Below, in pieces: positions 9,539-31,025 of a stretch of 54,515 nucleotides of DNA. A program made the position numbers and the translations under genes. The stretch covers positions 1 to 54,515 of the forward strand of contig JAJAPY010000022.1 in the NCBI GenBank assembly GCA_020523885.1, given 5' to 3'. The notes beneath the pieces are model-generated. The model was not told where the DNA came from and did not search any database. It saw nothing but the letters and a program-made list of their open reading frames with translations. The first letter of the stretch is position 1. Each line of letters opens with the position of its first letter. This DNA is from Candidatus Liberimonas magnetica (GTDB lineage: Bacteria; Elusimicrobiota; Endomicrobiia; Endomicrobiales; JAFGIL01).

Positions 9539-10255
9539 CTATTTCGTTTGTTGTACTGCAGCAGGATTTTTCTTCAGGTCACTAACAGAAATCTCTTTTC
9601 GCATTTCTTCAACTAAGAATGAATCAGGACTGATAACCACAACTACTCTCCGGTTTTCAGGATGACCCTTAGACTTTTCGGTTTCCTGTATTAACGGTTT
9701 GGTGTCGGCATAGCCTACGGATTCAAACCTTCTTGAATCCAGGCTGTGAGCGATGAAAAATTTCACGACTTTTGCTGCCCGGGCACTTGATAGTTCCCAG
9801 TTTGAGGGGTATACATCGCTTTTAATAGGAAGGCTGTCGGTATGTCCCTGCACGACTATTTTCCTTCTTGCGATATCCCCTGTGCTTAAAAGCGCGGATA
9901 TTTTTGAAAGGACATCAAAAGCTTGTGGTTTAACATCGGCTTTCCCAACATCAAAGAGCAGCTTATCCTTGAAATTAACCTCCACCCCGTTTGCCGTAAG
10001 TTTTGCATCGATCTGGACCTGCATATTTTCATGCACAATAAAATCTTTTATTTTTAATTCTAACTGCTTTAAAGTCATCCTGTCCTTTTTAGAAAAATAC
10101 TCGGTCATCATTTCAAATTTATTCTTATCAAGGGTTGACATTGACACCATAACTATAAAAAAAGCCAATAAAAGTGTTACCATGTCGGCATAGGAAATCA
10201 GCCATGGCTGGTCATCTTCTTGTTCACTGGTTTTTTTTATTTCAGGTAATTTCAT
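9539..10255 (-). CDS. motB: MotB-like stator protein (OmpA/MotB)
   Basis: A 238-residue MotB-type protein. A short cytoplasmic N-terminus leads into one membrane helix (18-39) holding the ion-carrying Asp of the family, D24 in SYADM. An OmpA-like peptidoglycan-binding domain follows, with GHTDSLPI near 137, NWELSSARA near 152 and NRRV near 201. With MotA it forms an ion channel anchored to the cell wall. It is the last gene of the minus-strand cluster and has no strong ribosome site of its own, consistent with coupling to motA 24 bp upstream. No complete flagellar gene set accompanies it. PomB-like Na+ use cannot be decided from sequence here. Confidence 0.9.
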   Translation of the reverse strand: MKLPEIKKTSEQEDDQPWLISYADMVTLLLAFFIVMVSMSTLDKNKFEMMTEYFSKKDRMTLKQLELKIKDFIVHENMQVQIDAKLTANGVEVNFKDKLLFDVGKADVKPQAFDVLSKISALLSTGDIARRKIVVQGHTDSLPIKSDVYPSNWELSSARAAKVVKFFIAHSLDSRRFESVGYADTKPLIQETEKSKGHPENRRVVVVISPDSFLVEEMRKEISVSDLKKNPAAVQQTK

Positions 10256-10279
10256 ATAGTTTAATTGTTAGGTAGGTGT

Positions 10280-11089
10280 TTATTTGGTTTCAAGTTTCTT
10301 ATACAGTTGTTTTCTCTGGCTCGGAGGCATATATACAGATAGTTTATCTTTTATGTAAATCGGGTGTTGTTTCTTTAAGATGTACATCAAACCTTCAATC
10401 TGCATTCTTCCTATCCTGAAATTATATTCAGCGTGAAATAAGAGTTTGTTGGCCATCGGGTTAAATATCATATTCGCAAAAACTACACCATAAAGAGTGG
10501 CAGTCAATGCTACAGATAAAAATGGGCCCATTTTTTCTGGATTCTCGCTTAATACCCTCATCATAAATATAAGGCCCACCAAAGTCCCTACCATGCCGAA
10601 TGCCGGAGCTGTTTTGCCCATGGTCCTAAATACATAAAAATCTATCATTTCACGGTCATACTTCCTTTGAATATTTGTTTCAAGGTATTCATAGACTTCT
10701 TCCGTCTTGTAGCCGTTCACAAGCATTGTCATCCCGTCTTTTAAAAGGTCGTCATTTTTATAAGTTGTTAATTTTTCTTCAAGCCCTTGAATGCTGTTTT
10801 TTGTATACCTAGCGCTGGCATCACATATCTCTTCGATAGCGTCTACAAAATTATATTCTTTCCGGATAAATACTACAAAGAACGCATAAAAACCGCGTAC
10901 CAGGTGGGAAAGAGGATGTGCTATAAGCGTTGCAGCTACTGTTCCGCCCATAACGATGAGAAAAGCAGGGATGCTCAAATACATCTCCTGTACCCCCATG
11001 ACTTTGGCAGCATTTTGCTGGGTAACTTCGATTATGGCAATCACCATCACCGAAAATCCTACTACAATTCCTATGAGAGTAGTTGGCAT
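10280..11089 (-). CDS. motA: MotA-like stator protein
   Basis: A 269-residue proton/sodium channel subunit of the MotA family. Four membrane helices are visible (about 5-24, 38-58, 158-178, 190-212), with a large cytoplasmic loop between helices 2 and 3. The family signature TAPAFGMVGTLVGLIFMM carries the conserved proline (P162), and a second proline lies in MIFNPMANKL (P211). The cytoplasmic loop, which presses on FliG in flagella, is full size and charged. This makes it MotA rather than the shorter TolQ/ExbB type. A GGAG ribosome site precedes the ATG. Confidence 0.92.
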   Translation of the reverse strand: MPTTLIGIVVGFSVMVIAIIEVTQQNAAKVMGVQEMYLSIPAFLIVMGGTVAATLIAHPLSHLVRGFYAFFVVFIRKEYNFVDAIEEICDASARYTKNSIQGLEEKLTTYKNDDLLKDGMTMLVNGYKTEEVYEYLETNIQRKYDREMIDFYVFRTMGKTAPAFGMVGTLVGLIFMMRVLSENPEKMGPFLSVALTATLYGVVFANMIFNPMANKLLFHAEYNFRIGRMQIEGLMYILKKQHPIYIKDKLSVYMPPSQRKQLYKKLETK

Positions 11090-11116
11090 TGCTTCTGTCT
11101 CCTGTCGATTTGCAGA

Positions 11117-12508
11117 TTATCTTTTATATTTAAAAAGTGCTTTTCTTACTTCTGACATATTGGGGTTAATTCGTAGAGCTGATTCCCAGGAACTAACTGC
11201 AAGGTCAGTATCGCCCATGGTGAAATATATAGACCCTTCAATAGCGTAAGCTAGGGCTGTTTCCTGCTTGGCAAGTGACCTTTGAACTGAATTCAGGGCG
11301 GCATTATATTTTTTTTCATAAAAAAACTTTTGTGCTTTAAGGAGATCATCTAAGGTCTGGGTATCAGCAATTATTGGATTGTCCACATTTTTTGCTTGGA
11401 CATTGTCATTTTGAGTTTGAACTGTTTCAGGAGCCCCGGCATCCGATTGCGGGTTAGCCGTATTATATGTATTCGATGTAGAAGGTGTTTGTGGATTTTG
11501 AAAAGCGGATGCTGTTGTTTGCGCTTGTGAAGTAGTAGTGGATTTTTTGTCCATGAATTGAGAAAGGTACTGCATGATTTTATCTATGTTCGTATTATCT
11601 TTTTTTGAATCTGTTTGCACCGGTTTTTCGGTTTTTTTGGTTTTTGGCAAAGCAAGGTTCATGTCGACATAAGTAGGGTCCAGATATAATTCTACCTCTT
11701 GCCCGTCTTGTAACAATTTCAATTTAACATACTGTTGTCCGGAATATTCTTCAATAGAAGCCTTGGAAGGTACAAGCCCGGGTTTTTTAGTTGAAGTAGA
11801 GGCTCCTGTTGAAAAATTTTTAGTTAACTCGAACTTGTCAAAACTTCCTGATAGATCCGCTACTTTATCTCTTAATTGTTCCTGGTTCTCATTTAATTTT
11901 ATCAGCATTGACATTATGTCTTCCTGTTCTTTTTTCAGGTAAGAGATCTGATTGTCATATGAGGTAGTGCTTTTTAAGTCTTCATATTGGTTTTTTATTG
12001 ATTGTTTTTTGATCGAGTCAATGTCCATTAAAGCACTGTCTTGTTTTTGTTTAATTTCATTTAATTGACTAGCGAAAGTTGTACTGCTGATACTGAGTTT
12101 TATATTAATGGCATTGATCTGTTTTGATAAGTCATCTGTTATTTGTTTTAAATCATTAGGAGTTTGTTTTGAATCACTAGGAATAGGTTGTTTTAAATCG
12201 TTAGGAGCAGTTTGTTTTGTGCCGATAGGAGCAGTTTGTTTTGTCCCATTAGCAGCGGGTTGTTTTACGTCGTTATTAGCAGGTTTGCCATTAGGGGTAG
12301 TTTGTTTTAAATCATTAATAGGAACCACGGGCTCCTGCTCCGGGCTGGTGCTTTGAACAGGCATCGTATCATCTTGAGCATCTTGTACGGATGAAAAAGG
12401 GATAGGTGGAAGCAGGTTTTCATCTGATTTTTCTTGTGTGTATGCGGGGTAAGCAAAAAAAAGAAAAATACTAAGGCTTATAATTAAACCGTAAGAGGGA
12501 TATTTCAT
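11117..12508 (-). CDS. Periplasmic repeat/coiled-coil/TPR protein of the motor cluster
   Basis: A 463-residue exported protein I cannot assign to a named family. The order is: signal peptide (1-24), a Pro/Gln/Asn-rich segment (about 45-120) made of near-repeats of DLKQTxPNG / TKQTAPN, a predicted coiled coil (about 120-215), a Thr/Ser/Gln-rich linker (about 290-365), and a C-terminal pair of TPR-like helices ending in WESALRINPNMSEVRKALF. Coiled coil followed by TPR resembles CpoB/YbgF, the periplasmic partner of the Tol-Pal machine, although there is no clear sequence match. It has its own GGAGG site and overlaps the upstream gene by 38 bp, so it belongs to the same operon as the FliF-FliG fusion and MotAB. 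Confidence 0.7.
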   Translation of the reverse strand: MKYPSYGLIISLSIFLFFAYPAYTQEKSDENLLPPIPFSSVQDAQDDTMPVQSTSPEQEPVVPINDLKQTTPNGKPANNDVKQPAANGTKQTAPIGTKQTAPNDLKQPIPSDSKQTPNDLKQITDDLSKQINAINIKLSISSTTFASQLNEIKQKQDSALMDIDSIKKQSIKNQYEDLKSTTSYDNQISYLKKEQEDIMSMLIKLNENQEQLRDKVADLSGSFDKFELTKNFSTGASTSTKKPGLVPSKASIEEYSGQQYVKLKLLQDGQEVELYLDPTYVDMNLALPKTKKTEKPVQTDSKKDNTNIDKIMQYLSQFMDKKSTTTSQAQTTASAFQNPQTPSTSNTYNTANPQSDAGAPETVQTQNDNVQAKNVDNPIIADTQTLDDLLKAQKFFYEKKYNAALNSVQRSLAKQETALAYAIEGSIYFTMGDTDLAVSSWESALRINPNMSEVRKALFKYKR

Positions 12509-13556
12509 ATGATAATCCTCCGACTTTCACGATGCTATTAGTTTTATTAACCGTAACGTCAGTTATTGGGATATAGTTGATGCCTGCACCTACGGTGATA
12601 TTTTTCGTTATATCGGACTCTATTTTAATGCCGAAAGTATTTACGCCCGAAGCTCCCATACCAAAAAGCCTGCCATAATTTATTTCAGCAGCTATATAAT
12701 CTCTTCCTTGTACAGACTTCACAGGAATTATTGAAATCCTGGCCCCTATTCGGGTAAAGAATGCAATAGACCCATTTGTTACTATAGTGGGATCTAAATC
12801 ATTACCCGAGATACCGTCATATAGATATAAGGCTCCGCCTGCTAAAGTATACCTTACTGAATCGCCTGTAATCGTCTTTTGTGAAATCCTTAGGTCTACT
12901 GTGTAATAATTGGCATAACTTGGGACTGTAAGGTTGCTGCTTGAACTTGTCTGGCCAACGGGGATACCTGCTGTACCTATACCATAATCTACACCGGTCA
13001 ATTTTTTTTCAAGCGAAACAGTTTGAGTAACGCTGGTTAATTCCTGGCTCCAGACAATCGCCATATTATCTGTTTCAAATATCCTTAAGTTCAAATAAAG
13101 TGTCTTATGTGTAACATATAACTCGCCTTCCAGGTAACCGTCTAGTCTCAATTTAGAAGCTATATCTTTTATTTCTTCTGTGCTTTGAAACCCGGAAACG
13201 AGGGTTATACTGTCTTCGCTTGACACAACCTTGATAGGTTTTATTTCAGGAGCATATACCAGGATAGGCCTTTGCACCTTTAAAAGAGCAGCTTCAATAT
13301 TCCCATACATTTGCCTGAAAAGAGGCAAGGGGATATTGCTCCTGTCGACTTTAAGAGAAAAAAAGACTATCCTTCTGACTTTTGGGTCCAGCTGTGCTAT
13401 CTTGTCCGGAAGGCTTTTAAGGCATGAATCAAGCATTTCGATGAGTTTATCATCGGAAATATCACGTACACTTTTTTTTTCAGCTGCAAAGATAAAATTC
13501 GGTATTAAAAGATTTACAACAAAAATCAAAGCAAAAATGCTTCTAAATTTATTCAT
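12471..13556 (-). CDS. Putative outer-membrane component of the motor cluster
   Basis: A 361-residue protein with a signal peptide (MNKFRSIFALIFVVNLLIPNFIFA). Residues about 40-180 alternate strands and helices and end in LDGYLEGELYVTHKTLYLNLRIFETDNMAIVW, which resembles the CsgG/TolB-N/LpoB-like fold used to report on or assemble envelope machines. Residues about 190-361 are amphipathic beta strands with many Gly and aromatic residues, as expected of a small outer membrane barrel. The gene starts 9 bp after the FliF-FliG stop and runs into the next gene by 38 bp. Function is inferred only from fold pattern and position. The PorV-CsgG protein at 32920 has the same two ingredients in reverse order. 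Confidence 0.65.
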   Translation of the reverse strand: MNKFRSIFALIFVVNLLIPNFIFAAEKKSVRDISDDKLIEMLDSCLKSLPDKIAQLDPKVRRIVFFSLKVDRSNIPLPLFRQMYGNIEAALLKVQRPILVYAPEIKPIKVVSSEDSITLVSGFQSTEEIKDIASKLRLDGYLEGELYVTHKTLYLNLRIFETDNMAIVWSQELTSVTQTVSLEKKLTGVDYGIGTAGIPVGQTSSSSNLTVPSYANYYTVDLRISQKTITGDSVRYTLAGGALYLYDGISGNDLDPTIVTNGSIAFFTRIGARISIIPVKSVQGRDYIAAEINYGRLFGMGASGVNTFGIKIESDITKNITVGAGINYIPITDVTVNKTNSIVKVGGLSYEISLLRFNYKP

Positions 13557-13564
13557 TTAATCAC

Positions 13565-15457
13565 CTAAGTTTGTAGTTTTTTTAAGTCCACAAGCCCGCT
13601 TTTTGCCATTTCACGTATTTTTTGGGTTATGGCACGCCTTGCTTTCTGGACTTCATCTATAGGTATTTCACCTGATTCTTCAAAAGCCTTCACTTCGTCC
13701 GTTATCATCAATTTCATTCTTTGAGGCAGATTATTCAGGAATTTTTCTTTTAAGTCTTCGCTCGAATCTATTAAGGCCCTGGTCATAACTTCTCTTTCGA
13801 AGCTTCTTAATATTTCAGCAAGGTTTTTGTCGGGTATCTTTGATATCTCATCAAAAGTAATGTAGACTTTGCGCAATTCTTCGGCAAGTTTTATGTCGTG
13901 TAGAGCGATAGATGCCAAGATCTCCTGTTCTTTTTCGGGTGTTGTATTTTCAAGGAAATTCCCGAGAGTATCTACACCATCGGTAGCGACGTATCTTATT
14001 CTTTCCACTTCTATCGCTTTTTTGGAAAGTTTATCTGCGATATCTCTGTAGGAGGTTGCCGGTATCTTTTTCAATTTTCCTATTTCGACCGGTATTTTTG
14101 ACTGGTGTTCTATGGGCAACTCCTTAAAAACAGCGTTAGCTTTTTCAGGGGAGACTTGAGCAAGAGCGATAGCCATTATGCCGACCGGCTCGTCTTTTAT
14201 TACATGGTATACTTGCTCTGCAGACATATTCTTTAAAAACTCGAACATGTCTTCGCCGGAAGCTTTTTGCGATTGGATCGATTGTTCTTTCTGAAATTCT
14301 TCTCTGAATCTTTTTAATGTCTCGATAATAGATTCTTTGTCAACAGAAGTCATTTGATTCATTGCAAATTTTACTTTTGAAGAGATTTCGCTTCCTAAAT
14401 ATTCCTGTAATATATCAATTAGGCTCGGATCGGTCGCTTTCAAGAAACCCGTGATCTGAAATATGCCATTGTCCTGTTCGGTAGCGGCCCATTTTTTAAA
14501 TATCTCACTTGCAAGTTTCGGGTTCCCGACAAGAGTGGTTACCATTAATTGCCTGAGTTCATAAAATATGTCTTTGTTCTCATCCTGCAATTGTATTGAC
14601 TGTCCTTTTTGGTCAGGGGTGGATGATTCTAAAACTGGTTTGGCTGCCGGCTGTGTTATTCCAGGCGGTATTGGTTGGTTCTGCCCCAGGCCGGACATCC
14701 CGGGAACGGGTGGAAGATATCCGTACGGATACCTTTCATGCTGGCCTCTAGCGCGTATAATGCTTAACCCCAATAAAATTATTATTACGAAAACCAACAC
14801 AGCTATAAAAATTCCGCCAATATATAGATAAGGGTAAACTTCTTTTGGAAAGATCTTATTTTGCTGGTCCTGTTGTGCTTGCTGCTGAGCTTTATCCTTT
14901 TCTTTTTCTTTAAAAACATCAAAAGCATTTGAAGGAGGCGGGAACGGTATTGCTTTTACATTGATCATATCGCCCCGAGATTCATCCAAGCCAATCCGTG
15001 TTTCGGTTACGGTTCTTACGAAATTTACATCATTATTAGAAAATATTTTTTCGTCTAATAGTATTGAAATTTCCATATATTTTATCTTAAATTTATCGGA
15101 GAATGTCCATTTTTCCATTGCAAGGTTATCTGTTTCCTGGTTGTTTACTGAAGAAGGGGGTATCGGAAGACCGGGTAACTCCAGTTCTTCCTTTTCGCTC
15201 TTGTTCTGGGCAGGTGCAGAAGTATCCTGAACAGGTATTCTTTCTAAAAAAGCTTTTATTCCAACAACAAAAGAGTCCTTTTTATAATAACTGCTTAATA
15301 CTTGCTCAAGCTGTGTTTGCAATCTTTCAGAAATGGCTGATTCTCTGCGAGTTAATTCTAGATCACGCTCTTGGACTGGTGCAGATAGCTGAGCGTTAGA
15401 GGTTGGTGTTAAAGTTATTAATATTAGAGATAATAGAGAAATTAGATATGTTCGCAT
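13565..15457 (-). CDS. FliF(C-terminal)-FliG fusion protein
   Basis: About 630 residues. From the ATG at 15457: a signal or membrane helix (MRTYLISLLSLILITLTPTSNA), then a segment like the C-terminal half of the flagellar MS-ring protein FliF, including LSSYYKKDSFVVGIKAFLERI and the FliF-type GLDESRGDMINVKAIPF. A membrane helix and a Pro-rich cytoplasmic linker follow. The last ~330 residues are FliG: the C-terminal block DLKEKFLNNLPQRMKLM and its helix-rich torque domain are unmistakable. The two ring-building domains of the FliF N-terminus are missing. TTG 15478 is an alternative start only 2 bp from AAGGAGG, and the ATG is 24 bp from it, so the exact start is open. Rotor-type protein paired with the MotAB downstream. 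Confidence 0.88.
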   Translation of the reverse strand: MRTYLISLLSLILITLTPTSNAQLSAPVQERDLELTRRESAISERLQTQLEQVLSSYYKKDSFVVGIKAFLERIPVQDTSAPAQNKSEKEELELPGLPIPPSSVNNQETDNLAMEKWTFSDKFKIKYMEISILLDEKIFSNNDVNFVRTVTETRIGLDESRGDMINVKAIPFPPPSNAFDVFKEKEKDKAQQQAQQDQQNKIFPKEVYPYLYIGGIFIAVLVFVIIILLGLSIIRARGQHERYPYGYLPPVPGMSGLGQNQPIPPGITQPAAKPVLESSTPDQKGQSIQLQDENKDIFYELRQLMVTTLVGNPKLASEIFKKWAATEQDNGIFQITGFLKATDPSLIDILQEYLGSEISSKVKFAMNQMTSVDKESIIETLKRFREEFQKEQSIQSQKASGEDMFEFLKNMSAEQVYHVIKDEPVGIMAIALAQVSPEKANAVFKELPIEHQSKIPVEIGKLKKIPATSYRDIADKLSKKAIEVERIRYVATDGVDTLGNFLENTTPEKEQEILASIALHDIKLAEELRKVYITFDEISKIPDKNLAEILRSFEREVMTRALIDSSEDLKEKFLNNLPQRMKLMITDEVKAFEESGEIPIDEVQKARRAITQKIREMAKSGLVDLKKLQT

Positions 15458-15508
15458 TCTTAAAATTCCGGTTATCAAAACCTCCTTGGTTCTACAAATA
15501 ACTATTAT

Positions 15509-15684: not shown

Positions 15685-16440
15685 CTATTTTACGTCTTTT
15701 AATTGAAACAAAAATTTGATTCCGCCCACTTCAATTAAATCGCCGTCTTTGAGTTCAGCTTGCCCTGAAAGTGTATTACTGTTTAGTTTTGGATACCCGT
15801 CTTTAACTGCGGTTATCAAATAACCTTCAGGCCTTTTGCTTATCAAGGCTGCGATATCAGGTGCAAACATCCCTTTTATTTTAATAGCCGCTGTAGAGGA
15901 TTTTCCAATATAGGTCAAAAGATTTGTCAGGGAATATTCATTCTGTTCTGCTTTACCCTCAATGACTCTAAGAATGCCGGTCTTTCCGTCGGGCTTGGCA
16001 GAGGGCTTTGACGCAGCACTGGAAGCTGGCGGAGCGGCCGGAGCTGCAGGCTGTGCGGCAGCGGCTTTATTGGCTTCCTGCTGTAAGATTTTTTGCTGCA
16101 GGTCCGGCGTCATAATAACTGTAGCTTCGGAATCAACTACTCTCGGCTGTTCTTCCGGATTAATAAATACAAGCGTATGCTGCCCTATCAATATCTGGTC
16201 ATTGTTCTTAAGTGCTGAGTTTAATATTTTTTTGTCATTTAGAAAAGTTCCGTTTGTGCTTTGAGTATCTTCGATAACGTACATGTTTCCCTGCATGGTT
16301 ATACGCGCATGATGGCCTGAAACAGCCATATTGTCGATGACGACATCGTTGTCCGGTTTCCGGCCGATGGTCATAGGAGTTTTTTCGATCGGTATTTCTT
16401 TTATTACCGCTGCATGGAACTTTAGCAGAAATTTTGGCAT
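15685..16440 (-). CDS. FHA-domain phospho-threonine reader
   Basis: A 251-residue cytoplasmic protein. The N-terminal FHA domain (about 22-95) is canonical, with IGRKPDNDVVID, SGHHA (41-45) and STNGTFLNDK (61-70), the residues that hold phospho-threonine. A linker follows with EATVIMTP (T107, T111) and an Ala/Pro-rich stretch (about 125-150). The C-terminal part (about 155-248) looks like a second, degenerate FHA fold lacking the SxxH and NG residues. FHA proteins bind targets phosphorylated by Ser/Thr kinases. The PP2C and kinase genes directly upstream complete such a circuit. A GAGG site lies 8 bp from the ATG. Confidence 0.9.
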   Translation of the reverse strand: MPKFLLKFHAAVIKEIPIEKTPMTIGRKPDNDVVIDNMAVSGHHARITMQGNMYVIEDTQSTNGTFLNDKKILNSALKNNDQILIGQHTLVFINPEEQPRVVDSEATVIMTPDLQQKILQQEANKAAAAQPAAPAAPPASSAASKPSAKPDGKTGILRVIEGKAEQNEYSLTNLLTYIGKSSTAAIKIKGMFAPDIAALISKRPEGYLITAVKDGYPKLNSNTLSGQAELKDGDLIEVGGIKFLFQLKDVK

Positions 16441-16454
16441 GGTTATAACCTCAT

Positions 16455-17234
16455 TTAATTGGTCTTAGCAACTGATTTTAATAACCTGTTAAAAAAATTC
16501 TCTTGTTTATTATACACAACTACTACGGTACAATTGTCTTTACCTCCATTTTCATTCGCCAGATCAACCAATTTATCGCAAATCGCCTGAGGGTCTTTTA
16601 TCGTCATCACTACTTCAAGTATTTTTGCATCGCTTACCGCTCTTGTCAAGCCGTCCGTGCAAAGGATTAAATAATCGTCTTTTAATGAAGGTTTTTCTAT
16701 AACGTCTGCCTCAACTTTTTCAGCTATTCCCAAAGCCCGGGTGAGTATGTTCTTATATTCGGAAAATTCGGCCTGTTCGGGTTTTATCAAACCTTTGCTT
16801 ATTTGTTCCTGTACCAGAGAATGGTCTGTAGTTAACTGTTGAATGTTCTTATGCCTGACCAGATATATCCTGGAATCTCCGACCCAGCCGAGCGTATACA
16901 TTTTATCATGCGATAATACCGCTACCACCGTAGTTCCCATTCCCTGATTTTGTTTATAATTTTGGCTTGCTTCATAGATGGCTTGATTGGCAAGCTGTAA
17001 ACTTGAAAGCAAGTGTTTTGAGTATCCGGTTTGATCGGTTTTTTTGCGCATTAATTGGTTTAAATTATTTTTTATAAGGTCCGTAGCGATCTTGCTTGCG
17101 ACTTCTCCTGAGTTATGCCCGCCCATACCGTCAGCTACAACAAAAAGGCCTATAGCAGGGTCTACAGTAAAATTATCTTCGTTATTCTTGCGAACTTTTC
17201 CAAGGTCTGTTTTGCTTCCGAATTCTAATGTCAT
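16455..17234 (-). CDS. PP2C-type Ser/Thr protein phosphatase
   Basis: A 259-residue PPM/PP2C phosphatase of the Stp1/PrpC type, which reverses Ser/Thr kinase action in the cytoplasm. The metal-binding motifs are complete: NNED (17-20), DGMGGH (35-40), GWVGDSR, the second-half Asp in [11 protein letters not shown] and the C-terminal GGKDNCT. Length is typical, with no extra domains. It lies 12 bp downstream of the kinase gene and 14 bp upstream of the FHA gene, the usual kinase-phosphatase pairing. AGAGG sits 5 bp before the ATG. Confidence 0.95.
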
Positions 17235-17246
17235 TTTTCCTCTTTA

Positions 17247-19817
17247 TTATGATTGTGTGCTCTTAATAGTTATCAAACATTCTCTCAAGTCAGCAGCTAT
17301 TTCACCGCCTCTTTGATAGCGCACATCCGGGTTTTTTTCAAGCATTTTATCTATAACCTTCACGATACAATCCGGTAGATTGGGGTCCTTTTCTTTTGGG
17401 TTCGGATGCTTTTCATTAGCTATCTGGAAAAGCAAAGCCGCGATGCTGTCACCTTCAAAAGGTTTTGAACCGGTCAAGAGTTCATATAGTACAACCCCTA
17501 AAGAAAACAGGTCGCTTCTTCCGTCAACCTTTTTGCCTGCCAATTGTTCGGGAGACATATAACTCGGGGTCCCTAGGACCGTGCCTGTCTGGGTTTTAGA
17601 TGAAGATGTTATTCTTGCTATCCCGAAATCAGCTATCCTTATGGTCCCGTCTTTTAAAAGCATTATATTGCCCGGCTTAATATCTCTGTGAATTATTCCC
17701 TGCTGGTGCGCATAATCCAGGGCGTCAGCACATTTTATTACGTAATCTATCACGGTCTGCCTGGGTAAAAGAGTGTTTTTTTCCGTATATTTTTTAAGGT
17801 CAACTCCGTCAAGAAGTTCCATTGCGATATAGGAAATCTCGTTGTCTTCGCCCGCATCAAAGATCTTAATAATATTAGGATGGTTCAGGTTTCCTGCCGA
17901 CTCTGCTTCACGGAAAAATCTTTCTTTTACGGATTTCATCGCTCCTTCTTCGACATCCTCTTCAAAATGCAGTGTTTTTATAGCCACAAGCCTGTTTATC
18001 TTTGGGTCTTTGCCGAGATATACGATTCCCATAGCTCCTTTGCCAAGCTCTTTGACTATTTCATATCTTCCAAGCGTAGGGGTTGCATTTGCCGCACCTT
18101 CCATTATAACTGTGCCTTCACTGCTGGATTTTTTGCCGCCTACGCTTCCAAATACCGCGCCGTCTGCTGCGGCCTTAAGCTGTTTTATACGTTCATTTAT
18201 CCCTTTATAATTTTGGTCTACAGTCATTATATGCTCATAAACTGAAGCAGCTTTGTTAAATTGGCGTTTCCGTTCAAAATCAAGAGCCAGGTTGTACAAA
18301 AGTTCTTTCATCTGCTCATCCATCGGGCATTTTCTGAATTTCTCAAAAGCCATATCGAGCATCCCCTGCCCCTGGAACGAAAGCCCAAGCATTTTGTTTG
18401 TTTCAATTGCACTGGCCTCTACAAGCTCTTTTTTCTTCTCTGTGATAAAAAATCGTTTGGATGTTATTACGATATAGCCGAAGACAAGCAGGAACGTCGG
18501 GTAAAAGACTTTGACCCAGTAACCGTATGCGACAAAATAATAGGTCCCTGCGCCTATTAAGCCAAAAAATAATATCAATGAAACAAGAGCACCAAATAAT
18601 GCTTTTAAACGCGACAATAAAATAGATATGAACAAGCCTATTATTATGATACTTGCAAGCTCAGCTTTTTTTGCCCAATTCGGGCGAATTATAAAATTTT
18701 GATGCAGTATATCCTGTATGGAATTAGCTGTTAACTCAATACCCGGGAAGTTGTGGCCGAGAGGCGTAACATTCAAGTCGGCGATACCTGTAGCCATATG
18801 CCCTATAAGAACGATTTTGTTCTTAAGAGATTTCGGGTCAACCTTTTCGTTTATAATATCGTAAAAAGAAAAGTATGGGAAAGTCCCTGCGGGCCCGTAA
18901 TAACTAATAAGCATCCTGCCTTCAGTGTCTATCGGAATGACCGCTTTGCCTATTGTTATTGAATCCCCTAGTTTTATTTTTATGAGTTCAATGGGTATAT
19001 TTAGGAACTGCCTGACAATCTGAACGGCAAAGGAAGGATAGTATTCGCTCTGGAACTGGATGACAGGGATTTCAGCCCTTACGACCCCGTCAACATCGGG
19101 GATAGTGTTTACATGCCCGATACCGGATGATTGTTCAGTAAATATTTTTAACGGTATAACAGGTTTGTTACCTTCACTTAAGCGGTATTTTCCTGCATCG
19201 CCGGGGTTCTCTACCTGTTTGATAGTGCTTGAGCTTAGTACTTGTTCTTCTCCGCCCAAAGAAGGCCCAATAGAAAAAAACATGGGAAGTATAACATTTT
19301 TATTTGCTTTTAATGTGTCGGAAAGCTTTGAGTCATTGTCTAACCGGATTTCAGCGTCGCTGAGTTCTTTTATTGTCCTATCTTTAAGTTCCTGAAATGC
19401 TGGGGCGGTTTTTTTCAGAGTTTTATTGGATAAAATGGGTAAAGACACTTCATCAATGGATTTTGAAAGTATATCTTTGAGGTTTTTGATTTCCAATAAC
19501 CCCTGGTTTCTTTCGGGTTCTGTAAAAAGAATATTTAGTCCTATGACTTTTGCCTCATCCTTTGAGATCGTTTCTATAGCTTTTGCGATTAAAGTCCTGG
19601 GCCACGGCCATCTTCCGATCTTAGCGATGGAGTCATCATCAATTGCAACTATGGCTATTTCATTTATAGGCTGGCTCGGCTGGCGGAGTTTTGACCTGAA
19701 GTCGTAAGTTTTAAGTTCTATGGATTCAAAAAAACCAATTTGAAAAAAGAATGAGATTAATACTAATATAGAAAGAATTAACCCTACGGTAATATCAGAA
19801 AGAATGATTTTTTTCAA
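17247..19817 (-). CDS. CHASE2-receptor Ser/Thr protein kinase
   Basis: An 856-residue membrane kinase. Order: membrane helix (about 9-29), an extracytoplasmic CHASE2 sensor (about 35-375, with [18 protein letters not shown] and [15 protein letters not shown]), three membrane helices (about 386-452), a short TPR-like helical pair (about 475-545), a linker with EGTVIMEG (T569), then a Hanks-type kinase domain (585-850). Kinase motifs are complete: GKGAMG, catalytic VAIK (K614), HRDIKPGN (710-717) and DFG (730-732). It should sense a periplasmic signal and phosphorylate cytoplasmic proteins. The start is TTG with GGAGG 4 bp upstream. It is the first gene of the cluster, behind its own promoter. 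Confidence 0.95.
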
Positions 19818-29312: not shown

Positions 29313-31025
29313 TTGGATATTGAAAATAGTTTAAGCAAAAAATATGTAGAAAGTATAATAAAAGATGCTATACCAAATTGTTCTTTTGATTACTATGAAA
29401 ATCCAATGGAAAGAAATATTGTTTTTAGAGCTATAGTAGGAGAGCATACTTATCCTATTAGTTTTTCTAGATTAGCAATTGAGGGTTTTGAGAATAGTTT
29501 TGATAATAAAACTAGCGAACAACATATTAGGCAGAAAAACTATATAAAATATGCTATTTACTGTATTCTGGGAAAAGAAGGGATATTTAGGTCAGATTTT
29601 AGAATCTCAAAAACAATACTTGAAGAAATAGAAATATGGAAATCTAGCACTACAACAAAGAGTGTCTCCTTTGCTCCATCTTTTACAGAAAATATACTTT
29701 ATGGTTTGAATGTATTAAAAGATTATTTGGATAAGAAATATAATAAAACTCAATCTGATATATTCAAAAAGGATATTAAAGAAATAGAAAATATAATTAA
29801 CTATGCAGGCGAGCACAATGCTTCACTTGCTGACCCCGATGCTACTTATAACTCTTTAGGATTTTTGAAAACCGGTGCTTTTTTAAAAATAATTGAAATT
29901 GAAAAACTAAAAGAGAAAGAAACATCAAAAAGAATGAAGAATCAATATGATATTAAAATATATGAAATTGTTTCTGAGATGCAAAAGTATTTTATGGATG
30001 TTAAACTTCCCGAGTGTGCATCGGAATACTATGCTGATTTAGACAAATCTACTAATGACATTGTTGATTTGTCGTCTAGGACACAAAAACCATTAATTTT
30101 TATAAGTTATGCTACAGAAGAAATAGAATTAGCCGATTTTTTAAAAACAATCATTCAATATTGGGCAAAAGATAAAGTTAATGTGTTTATTGCTATGAGA
30201 GATATTCCAGCAGGTGCCGATCCTTTAAAAACAATGATGTTTGATAATCTTAAATTAGCAGATGCTATAATTCCTATTTGTTCTGAGACATCAAAGGGTT
30301 CTTTGTGGTTGTGGTGGGAAACATCTTCAGTATGGGGAAGGAATAAGTCAGTATTTCCTTTGTTTACTAACATCTCTGCAGGAGCTTTTGGACCACCTCT
30401 AAACCTTGTAAAGCAAGGGAAATTATATTTTAATGAAACAGAATTTAATGAGACATTATCTATACTCCTTAATGAGTTTGAAATAAAGGTAGGAAGTAAC
30501 GCGTTAATAGGAGGGAATAAGACTACTTTCAATAAATTAAAAAATAAGTTTAGCAATGTTCAGTCTAAAATAAAAGTTAATTTGTCATATAACAAAATAT
30601 CTGAAGAAAGCAATGGAAATATTCACAGATATTGGTTAAATTACGATATAACAAATAATAATACAAAGTCATACAATGATATTGTTGCTGAATTGATATT
30701 TCCAAAAGATTATTTGGAAAATCAACAACTGGAATATCCACATCATTTGAATAATAGCAAACTAGATAATATGAAAGATTACATTTTAATAACTTTTAAT
30801 TATAACGGAATGCCAGAAGATGGTAAAAAGGTTCATTCAATAGGGAAACTTCCAGGAAAGACACTAAGAATTTTTGGAGAGCGTGGAATAGTTCCACTAA
30901 AGTATAAAATGACTACACCATTATGGGATAAAAGGCAAAATTATCGAGTATTTTGGAAAGTATTCATTGATGGTATAATTAGTGATGAGGGAAATAAATC
31001 TCTTGATGAACTTCAAGCATTTTAA
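29313..31025 (+). CDS. TIR-domain protein (candidate defence effector)
   Basis: A 570-residue protein starting at TTG 29313, with TAGGAGGA upstream. Residues 1-255 are mostly helical and unrecognised. Residues about 258-392 form a TIR domain: FISYATEE (263-270), a central VNVFIAMRDIPAG, then PICSETSKGSLWLWWETSS with E336 at the place of the catalytic glutamate of NAD+-cleaving TIRs. Residues about 415-560 look like a beta-sandwich (NLSYNKIS ... RYWLNYDITNN). TIR proteins of bacteria commonly deplete NAD+ in phage defence. Whether this one is an effector, and what senses infection, is not shown. AT-rich codon use and flanking repeats suggest horizontal arrival. Confidence 0.8.
   Translation: MDIENSLSKKYVESIIKDAIPNCSFDYYENPMERNIVFRAIVGEHTYPISFSRLAIEGFENSFDNKTSEQHIRQKNYIKYAIYCILGKEGIFRSDFRISKTILEEIEIWKSSTTTKSVSFAPSFTENILYGLNVLKDYLDKKYNKTQSDIFKKDIKEIENIINYAGEHNASLADPDATYNSLGFLKTGAFLKIIEIEKLKEKETSKRMKNQYDIKIYEIVSEMQKYFMDVKLPECASEYYADLDKSTNDIVDLSSRTQKPLIFISYATEEIELADFLKTIIQYWAKDKVNVFIAMRDIPAGADPLKTMMFDNLKLADAIIPICSETSKGSLWLWWETSSVWGRNKSVFPLFTNISAGAFGPPLNLVKQGKLYFNETEFNETLSILLNEFEIKVGSNALIGGNKTTFNKLKNKFSNVQSKIKVNLSYNKISEESNGNIHRYWLNYDITNNNTKSYNDIVAELIFPKDYLENQQLEYPHHLNNSKLDNMKDYILITFNYNGMPEDGKKVHSIGKLPGKTLRIFGERGIVPLKYKMTTPLWDKRQNYRVFWKVFIDGIISDEGNKSLDELQAF

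Follow-up and report, generated by a model that had tools for sequence, protein, structure and literature searches.

An open reading frame of Candidatus Liberimonas magnetica (Elusimicrobiota), in which FliF-like sequence runs directly into FliG-like sequence, raises the question of whether a flagellar rotor can be encoded as a single chain and, if so, what it turns. The frame lies in a contig of 54,515 nucleotides, here called the window, which is the whole stretch of DNA that was analysed.

A single-chain FliF-FliG gene and its operon

Frame reading gave 637 uninterrupted codons at 15478..13565 of the minus strand, and the plus strand over 13565-15478 is stop-rich. Translation likely starts at ATG 15457 rather than at TTG 15478, since the family profile match begins there. 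Profiles, solved-structure sequences and AlphaFold/Foldseek agree on the layout of the product: signal peptide, RBM3 domain, transmembrane helix, proline-rich linker and full FliG. The gene opens a minus-strand operon (15478..9539) that continues with an outer-membrane barrel, a coiled-coil/TPR protein, MotA and MotB; the gaps are 8 to 27 nt, apart from the overlap of 12508..11117 with 13556..12471, and the gene beyond MotB is convergent. The features are as follows.

13565..15478, minus strand: fusion gene of FliF(RBM3) and FliG that opens the operon, with ATG 15457 as its likely start
15389..15457, minus strand: signal peptide, residues 8-30 (sequence, model helix 2-23, hydrophobic N-terminus retained in homologues)
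14939..15373, minus strand: RBM3 / S-ring domain with shortened collar, residues 36-180 (Pfam YscJ_FliF_C, Foldseek, profile matches to FliF)
14741..14833, minus strand: transmembrane helix, residues 216-246 (AlphaFold model)
14570..14740, minus strand: proline-rich disordered linker, residues 247-303 (pLDDT mostly <50 in the model)
13586..14569, minus strand: FliG N, M and C domains, residues 304-631 (Pfam, solved-structure sequences, Foldseek)
13586..13909, minus strand: FliG_C torque domain, within the FliG part
12471..13556, minus strand: outer-membrane protein with signal peptide, LpoB/CsgG-like periplasmic domain and 8-stranded barrel, 8 nt after the fusion (alignment, model, Foldseek)
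11117..12508, minus strand: periplasmic coiled-coil / low-complexity protein with C-terminal TPR, overlapping 13556..12471
10280..11089, minus strand: MotA, flagellar-type stator subunit, 269 aa
9539..10255, minus strand: MotB, with plug and OmpA peptidoglycan-binding domain (profile and structure matches)

A sequence-only reading of this DNA had proposed a natural FliF-FliG fusion, and Pfam profiles, structure matches and homologues bear this out. Where that reading had allowed that FliF_C or FliG models might fail, the Pfam search returned YscJ_FliF_C (residues 114-179; E 1.9e-5, above cut-off), FliG_N (1.2e-9), FliG_M (residues 421-491; 1.1e-10) and FliG_C (residues 524-631; 4.9e-23), and the expectation of a full FliG with a torque domain thus held. 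The same fusion, here termed type A, recurs in five further genomes (34-62% identity), and among the FliG_C matches listed for the phylum most lie in fusion-sized frames; sequencing error was dismissed on these grounds, and 15478..13565 is a real gene encoding a genuine single-chain FliF-FliG fusion, not an artefact.

The N-terminal part had been assigned to the FliF C-terminal region; its FliF identity stands, and it is more exactly the S-ring domain RBM3, at about residues 36-180. It bears the marks of RBM3, namely a collar motif LPGLP (compare GVPG of FliF), the end motif GLDESRGD and an alpha-beta-beta-alpha-beta fold. Against the sequences of solved structures, the family profile matched the FliF entry 9yh6 over the RBM3 stretch (profile positions 37-181; E 3.4e-4); the single fusion sequence matched FliG only, either as a separate protein or within the FliF-FliG construct 8z4d (best 5.8e-17). 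An AlphaFold model built from 20 aligned fusions (mean pLDDT 75.8) consists of a signal helix, a helix-strand-strand-helix-strand unit (40-177), a membrane helix, a disordered linker and an all-helical FliG, as the earlier mention of a membrane helix and a proline-rich linker had it. From this one model Foldseek gave matches both to FliF S-rings (8z5v, 3.9e-4; 8ftf, an RBM3 33-mer, 1.3e-3; also 6sd1) and to FliG in the C-ring (8wiw, 1.9e-11); whole-chain TM scores were low, as expected with flexibly linked domains. N-terminal profiles of this and of two further fusion types, B and C, matched true FliF proteins over RBM3 (in E. coli FliF, about residues 230-435) and not over RBM1/2. The match clearly exceeded shuffled controls for FliF of one relative (G215) and was weak for that of E. 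coli. Since the profiles fall on RBM3 and not on RBM1/2, and since the structure matches are to S-rings, the FliF part of the fusion is RBM3.

The reported absence of RBM1/2 was likewise upheld, PF01514 having no match in the gene or in the whole genome; the smaller ring suggested from it is not supported, because the domain retained is the one that forms the S-ring, and a full-sized S-ring is equally possible. In flagella, RBM3 with its collar builds the 33-35-mer S-ring (PMC11481574), which makes ring assembly without RBM1/2 plausible by analogy.

The FliG part scored 93.4 bits against TIGR00207 (fliG, NCBIfam; E 1.7e-26), under the cut-off of 226.7, and is thus divergent. Charges of the torque helix were examined at K264, R281, D288, D289 and R297, in E. 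coli numbering checked on NC_000913. R281 and D288 are retained in all six type-A proteins and K264 and R297 are lost; in types B and C it is R281 that is lost. MotA E98, the contact partner of FliG R281, is kept in 6/6 type-A sets, and MotA R90 is replaced, with a lysine at the next position in most. With K264, R297 and MotA R90 missing from type A and R281 from types B and C, torque contacts differ from those of E. coli. The channel residues (equivalents of MotA P173 and P222 and MotB D32) are intact in all six type-A sets. Among solved structures MotA matched MotA/PomA only, over its length (5.2e-33), with TolQ at no better than 0.0024 among NCBIfam models, and the best matches of MotB were MotB/MotS/PomB (2.5e-36). 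We interpret MotAB as a working stator that would act on the FliG ring through changed contacts. In FliG, the EHPQ motif that binds FliM has become EPV, EPE and similar, a change that fits the absence of FliM.

By sequence alone the second gene remained unnamed, the FlgO model touching it at only E 0.052. Its structural model comprises an alpha/beta domain followed by eight strands; Foldseek matched the first part to LpoB (4.1e-5) and also to GNA1162 and PelBC, and the barrel to OmpA/NspA (5.4e-5/8.8e-5) and also to OmpX. In the coiled-coil protein that follows, the TPR end is conserved.

Upstream of the operon, a CHASE2 Ser/Thr kinase, a PP2C phosphatase and an FHA protein stand in a row (19817..15685). 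They were weighed as possible members of the system and rejected, because about 200 bp separate them from the fusion and because they have no match next to the type-A loci of the other genomes with examined flanks. Elsewhere in the window, an AT-rich gene (29313..31025; 29% GC) reads like a TIR-domain protein and is possibly a defence gene.

Flagellar genes and fusion types across the phylum

The source genome (3.39 Mb, 97.8% complete) holds exactly two FliG_C genes, and the second (C10:26338) is likewise a fusion; a search for an intact fliF or fliG elsewhere in the genome, which the sequence-only reading had suggested, found none. Whole-genome profile searches detected no FlhA, no YscJ_FliF (RBM1/2, PF01514) and no FliM/FliN (PF01052). 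Among 50 genomes picked for matching the fusion (the source genome and 49 others), FlhA, RBM1/2 and FliMN were missing from 49, the source genome included, and positive controls were detected; the exception, G032, carries a flagellum-type set and a normal-sized FliG. The missing export gate (FlhA) suggests that flagellin, rod and hook genes are absent as well. On this gene content, we conclude that the type-A system is in all likelihood not a flagellum.

FlhA was found in 3 of 295 Elusimicrobiota genomes (G032, G215 and G246; E <1e-200), at G032:C2, G215:C78 and G246:C208. In G032 and G215, FliF and FliG also have the size of flagellar proteins; G215 has a type-B fusion in addition to its flagellar-type FliG. 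These genomes contradict the published statement that the phylum lacks flagellar machinery (PMC11257099). FliG_C occurs in 120/295 genomes and MotB_plug in 124/295: 118 have both, 2 FliG only, 6 MotB only and 169 neither, a pattern in which joint presence and joint absence are both seen across many families. Shared descent, which Fisher's test ignores, inflates any p value for this association, and none is used as a probability. Among the matches listed, MotB lies within 8.5 kb at 79 of 150 FliG places.

Three fusion types were distinguished. Type A occurs in 6/341 genomes from five families, with the same five-gene order in all six at identities down to about 30%; named relatives of the protein are Elusimicrobia/Endomicrobiales records, and a type-A profile scan of the genome collection found four loci, all in Elusimicrobia, with peptide patterns strict enough that absence elsewhere is weak evidence. 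In type B, a giant protein, ending in an FlgD_ig domain where tested, and a PorV/FadL-like TPR protein are encoded ahead of FliFG, and a proline-rich protein, MotA and MotB follow it in most loci read. Type C comprises FliFG-MotA-MotB, joined in several loci by a TPR protein and another MotB-like gene. In a FliG tree, support was 100 for A, 100 for B, 91 for C and 99 for B+C; with long branches and a backbone value of 39%, the tree is compatible with one or two fusion events for A versus B+C. A 346-aa FliG-like gene adjoining a ParA-like gene (L039, G037:C15, 10375..9335) is apparently without RBM3.

The second fusion of the source genome (L033, G000:C10:16001-36000) is of type B, 622 aa long with a C-terminal TPR, and has a PorV/FadL-like TPR protein, FlgD_ig proteins and a 1854-aa protein beside it; a B-like MotAB pair lies on a separate contig (C19, the fusion being on C10). 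The PorV/FadL-like and FlgD_ig-ended giant proteins of type B prompted us to consider a type IX-like identity, which was rejected when SprA_N was not found in the source genome; SprA_N gave weak partial matches in 8/25 genomes of the phylum. The frames so matched (L076, L077 and others) are 1729-1864 aa long and may encode a type IX-like component.

Chemotaxis genes accompany some of these loci. The source genome, without a flagellum, carries CheA, CheB (by sequence only), two CheC, CheD, CheW and an MCP (L084, L085, C4). In G102 (L082-L083, C40) a cluster of CheW, CheA, two CheC, CheD and response regulators runs on the same strand directly into a type-B FlgD_ig-PorV-FliFG locus, and in G205 roughly 5 kb separate CheW from a FliFG-MotA pair of type C. 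This linkage favours surface motility for types B and C; control of type IV pili is an alternative use of the che genes. The type-A locus lacks che and adhesin neighbours, and CheW had no match in four type-A genomes (G120, G006, G009 and G159); surface motility could be extended to type A only tentatively. The G102 cluster (L082) also includes an MreB/FtsA/PilM-like gene, and a similar-looking gene occupies the same place in the source genome (L084). Separately, in two distant families (L037 of G004 and L038 of G159), the type-A operon adjoins genes that resemble those of type IV pili (pilin and PilB/PilT/PilC-like by sequence).

The proposed motor and its alternatives

We consider it probable that the operon at 15478..9539 encodes a flagellum-independent, ion-driven rotor-stator motor that transmits torque through the envelope, with surface motility or delivery as its likely output. 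The motor part of this reading is well supported; we infer ring formation, rotation and coupling, and the output is the most speculative element. About 30 copies of the fusion would assemble into a ring, with a periplasmic S-ring from RBM3, one membrane-crossing helix and a cytoplasmic torque ring from FliG. MotA5MotB2 units, held to peptidoglycan by MotB, would push FliG by ion flow, and the turning S-ring would act on the operon's coiled-coil/TPR protein and LpoB-like outer-membrane barrel. Lacking an export gate and, presumably, a rod, hook and filament, the motor must have its load in the envelope, which points to these two proteins as the partners; with FliM and FliN missing, there is no known switch. 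The output would most likely be movement or the energised delivery of surface components, as in gliding-type motility. For the phylum at large, we lean slightly toward a class of flagellum-less MotAB-FliG motors with at least three RBM3-FliG rotor lineages (A, B and C), each with its own stators and envelope partners and some controlled by chemotaxis, that would drive surface motility or secretion.

The alternative that survives best, though we think it rather unlikely, is a Tol/Ton-like transducer, in which MotAB nudges the RBM3-FliG ring and so drives the barrel as a device for transport, secretion or envelope constriction; rotation would not be continuous and the cell would not be moved. 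The coiled-coil/TPR protein recalls CpoB/YbgF of Tol-Pal, the LpoB/PelC/CsgG-like domain of the outer-membrane partner has a fold of cell-wall and export machines, and the lack of an adhesin or che neighbour in type A would suit such a device. However, the stator subunit belongs with flagellar MotA rather than with TolQ/ExbB, such a device would have no need of a full FliG torque domain, and the other fusion types adjoin che genes and giant surface proteins.

It is very unlikely that the operon is a degenerate flagellar remnant with a structural role, comparable to the FliF-FliG protein of Chlamydiaceae. Loss of several torque residues, the sub-threshold TIGR00207 score and the patchy distribution of type A would fit decay, yet the ion channel residues are intact, FliG and MotB co-occur strictly, genomes hold several paralogous motors and the operon has acquired new conserved partners. 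Less credible still is a true flagellum so divergent that the models miss its remaining parts: the very weak FlgO match of the outer-membrane protein and the FlgD_ig domains of type-B loci, which could be taken for such parts, are sub-threshold or generic, the highly conserved FlhA was readily found in three relatives and nowhere else in the 295 genomes, and FliMN and RBM1/2 occur in only one of the 50. An error of sequencing or assembly that ran two adjacent genes together, of which the sequence-only reading had named the former as a danger, can be set aside as next to impossible, the same fusion being present in five other independent assemblies and types B and C across the phylum.

Comparison with known systems

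Models of flagellar evolution take the rotor, the stator and the export apparatus to have been separate modules at one time; we know of no description of a FliG rotor working without an export gate. If the phylum-wide reading is true, a free-standing flagellar engine would either have survived from a pre-flagellar module or have escaped from the flagellum, and bacteria thought non-motile would contain motors. Status as a new class hinges on rotation and output. The loci provide an actual operon to study, with a minimal rotor reduced to one polypeptide and no FliM/FliN, and they single out a phylum in which motility can be sought; the single-chain rotor is also convenient for structural work on torque generation. 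Flagellar machinery has been stated to be missing from all Elusimicrobiota genomes, and all isolates to be non-motile (PMC11257099); a phylogeny of MotAB makes no mention of the phylum (PMC12505986), and a 2025 survey found rotor proteins in 11% of non-motile species and left them unexplained (PMC12199754). No description of these motor loci was found in the open-access PMC literature.

To our knowledge, neither the T9SS/GldLM nor the Agl-Glt motor has a FliG or RBM3 rotor, and the SpoIIIAG sporulation complex has neither FliG nor MotAB. The gliding motors of Bacteroidota (T9SS/GldLM) and Myxococcus (Agl-Glt) are alike in that ion-driven stator-like units act on envelope proteins without a flagellum, and GldLM is described as non-homologous to MotAB (PMC13104615).

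FliF-FliG fusion is not in itself new, being known from laboratory mutants and, as a natural case, from Chlamydiaceae. In Chlamydiaceae, FliF is naturally fused to FliG_M (Bergeron 2016, PMC4768692); as here, a membrane-ring protein is joined to FliG sequence in a host not thought to be flagellated, but that protein has RBM2 and a second putative RBM, no SpoIIIAG-like RBM3 and FliG_M only (PMC4768692), whereas the present fusion has RBM3 only, FliG N, M and C (FliG_C E 4.9e-23), an accompanying MotAB and no FlhA. Chlamydia has flagellar-type FlhA and FliI (PMC2830194). Laboratory fusions of Salmonella and Vibrio contain full FliF and derive from a normal flagellum, unlike the gene described here; they resemble it in that fusion allows ring assembly (PMC6079021, PMC11481574), and the Salmonella fusion mutant is motile (PMC6079021). 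The earlier remark that fusion is compatible with rotation was sound.

The closest comparison is with the flagellar rotor-stator itself, which shares the FliG M and C domains, the RBM3 domain and a MotA/MotB pair with intact channel residues. It differs in that FliF and FliG are here one chain, in a genome without RBM1/2, FliM, FliN or FlhA, and that the operon adds new partners, an outer-membrane and a TPR protein. All core parts can be recognised as flagellar, and the system is most likely the flagellar engine in a form without a flagellum; the related engines across the phylum suggest that the motor drives something other than a flagellum.
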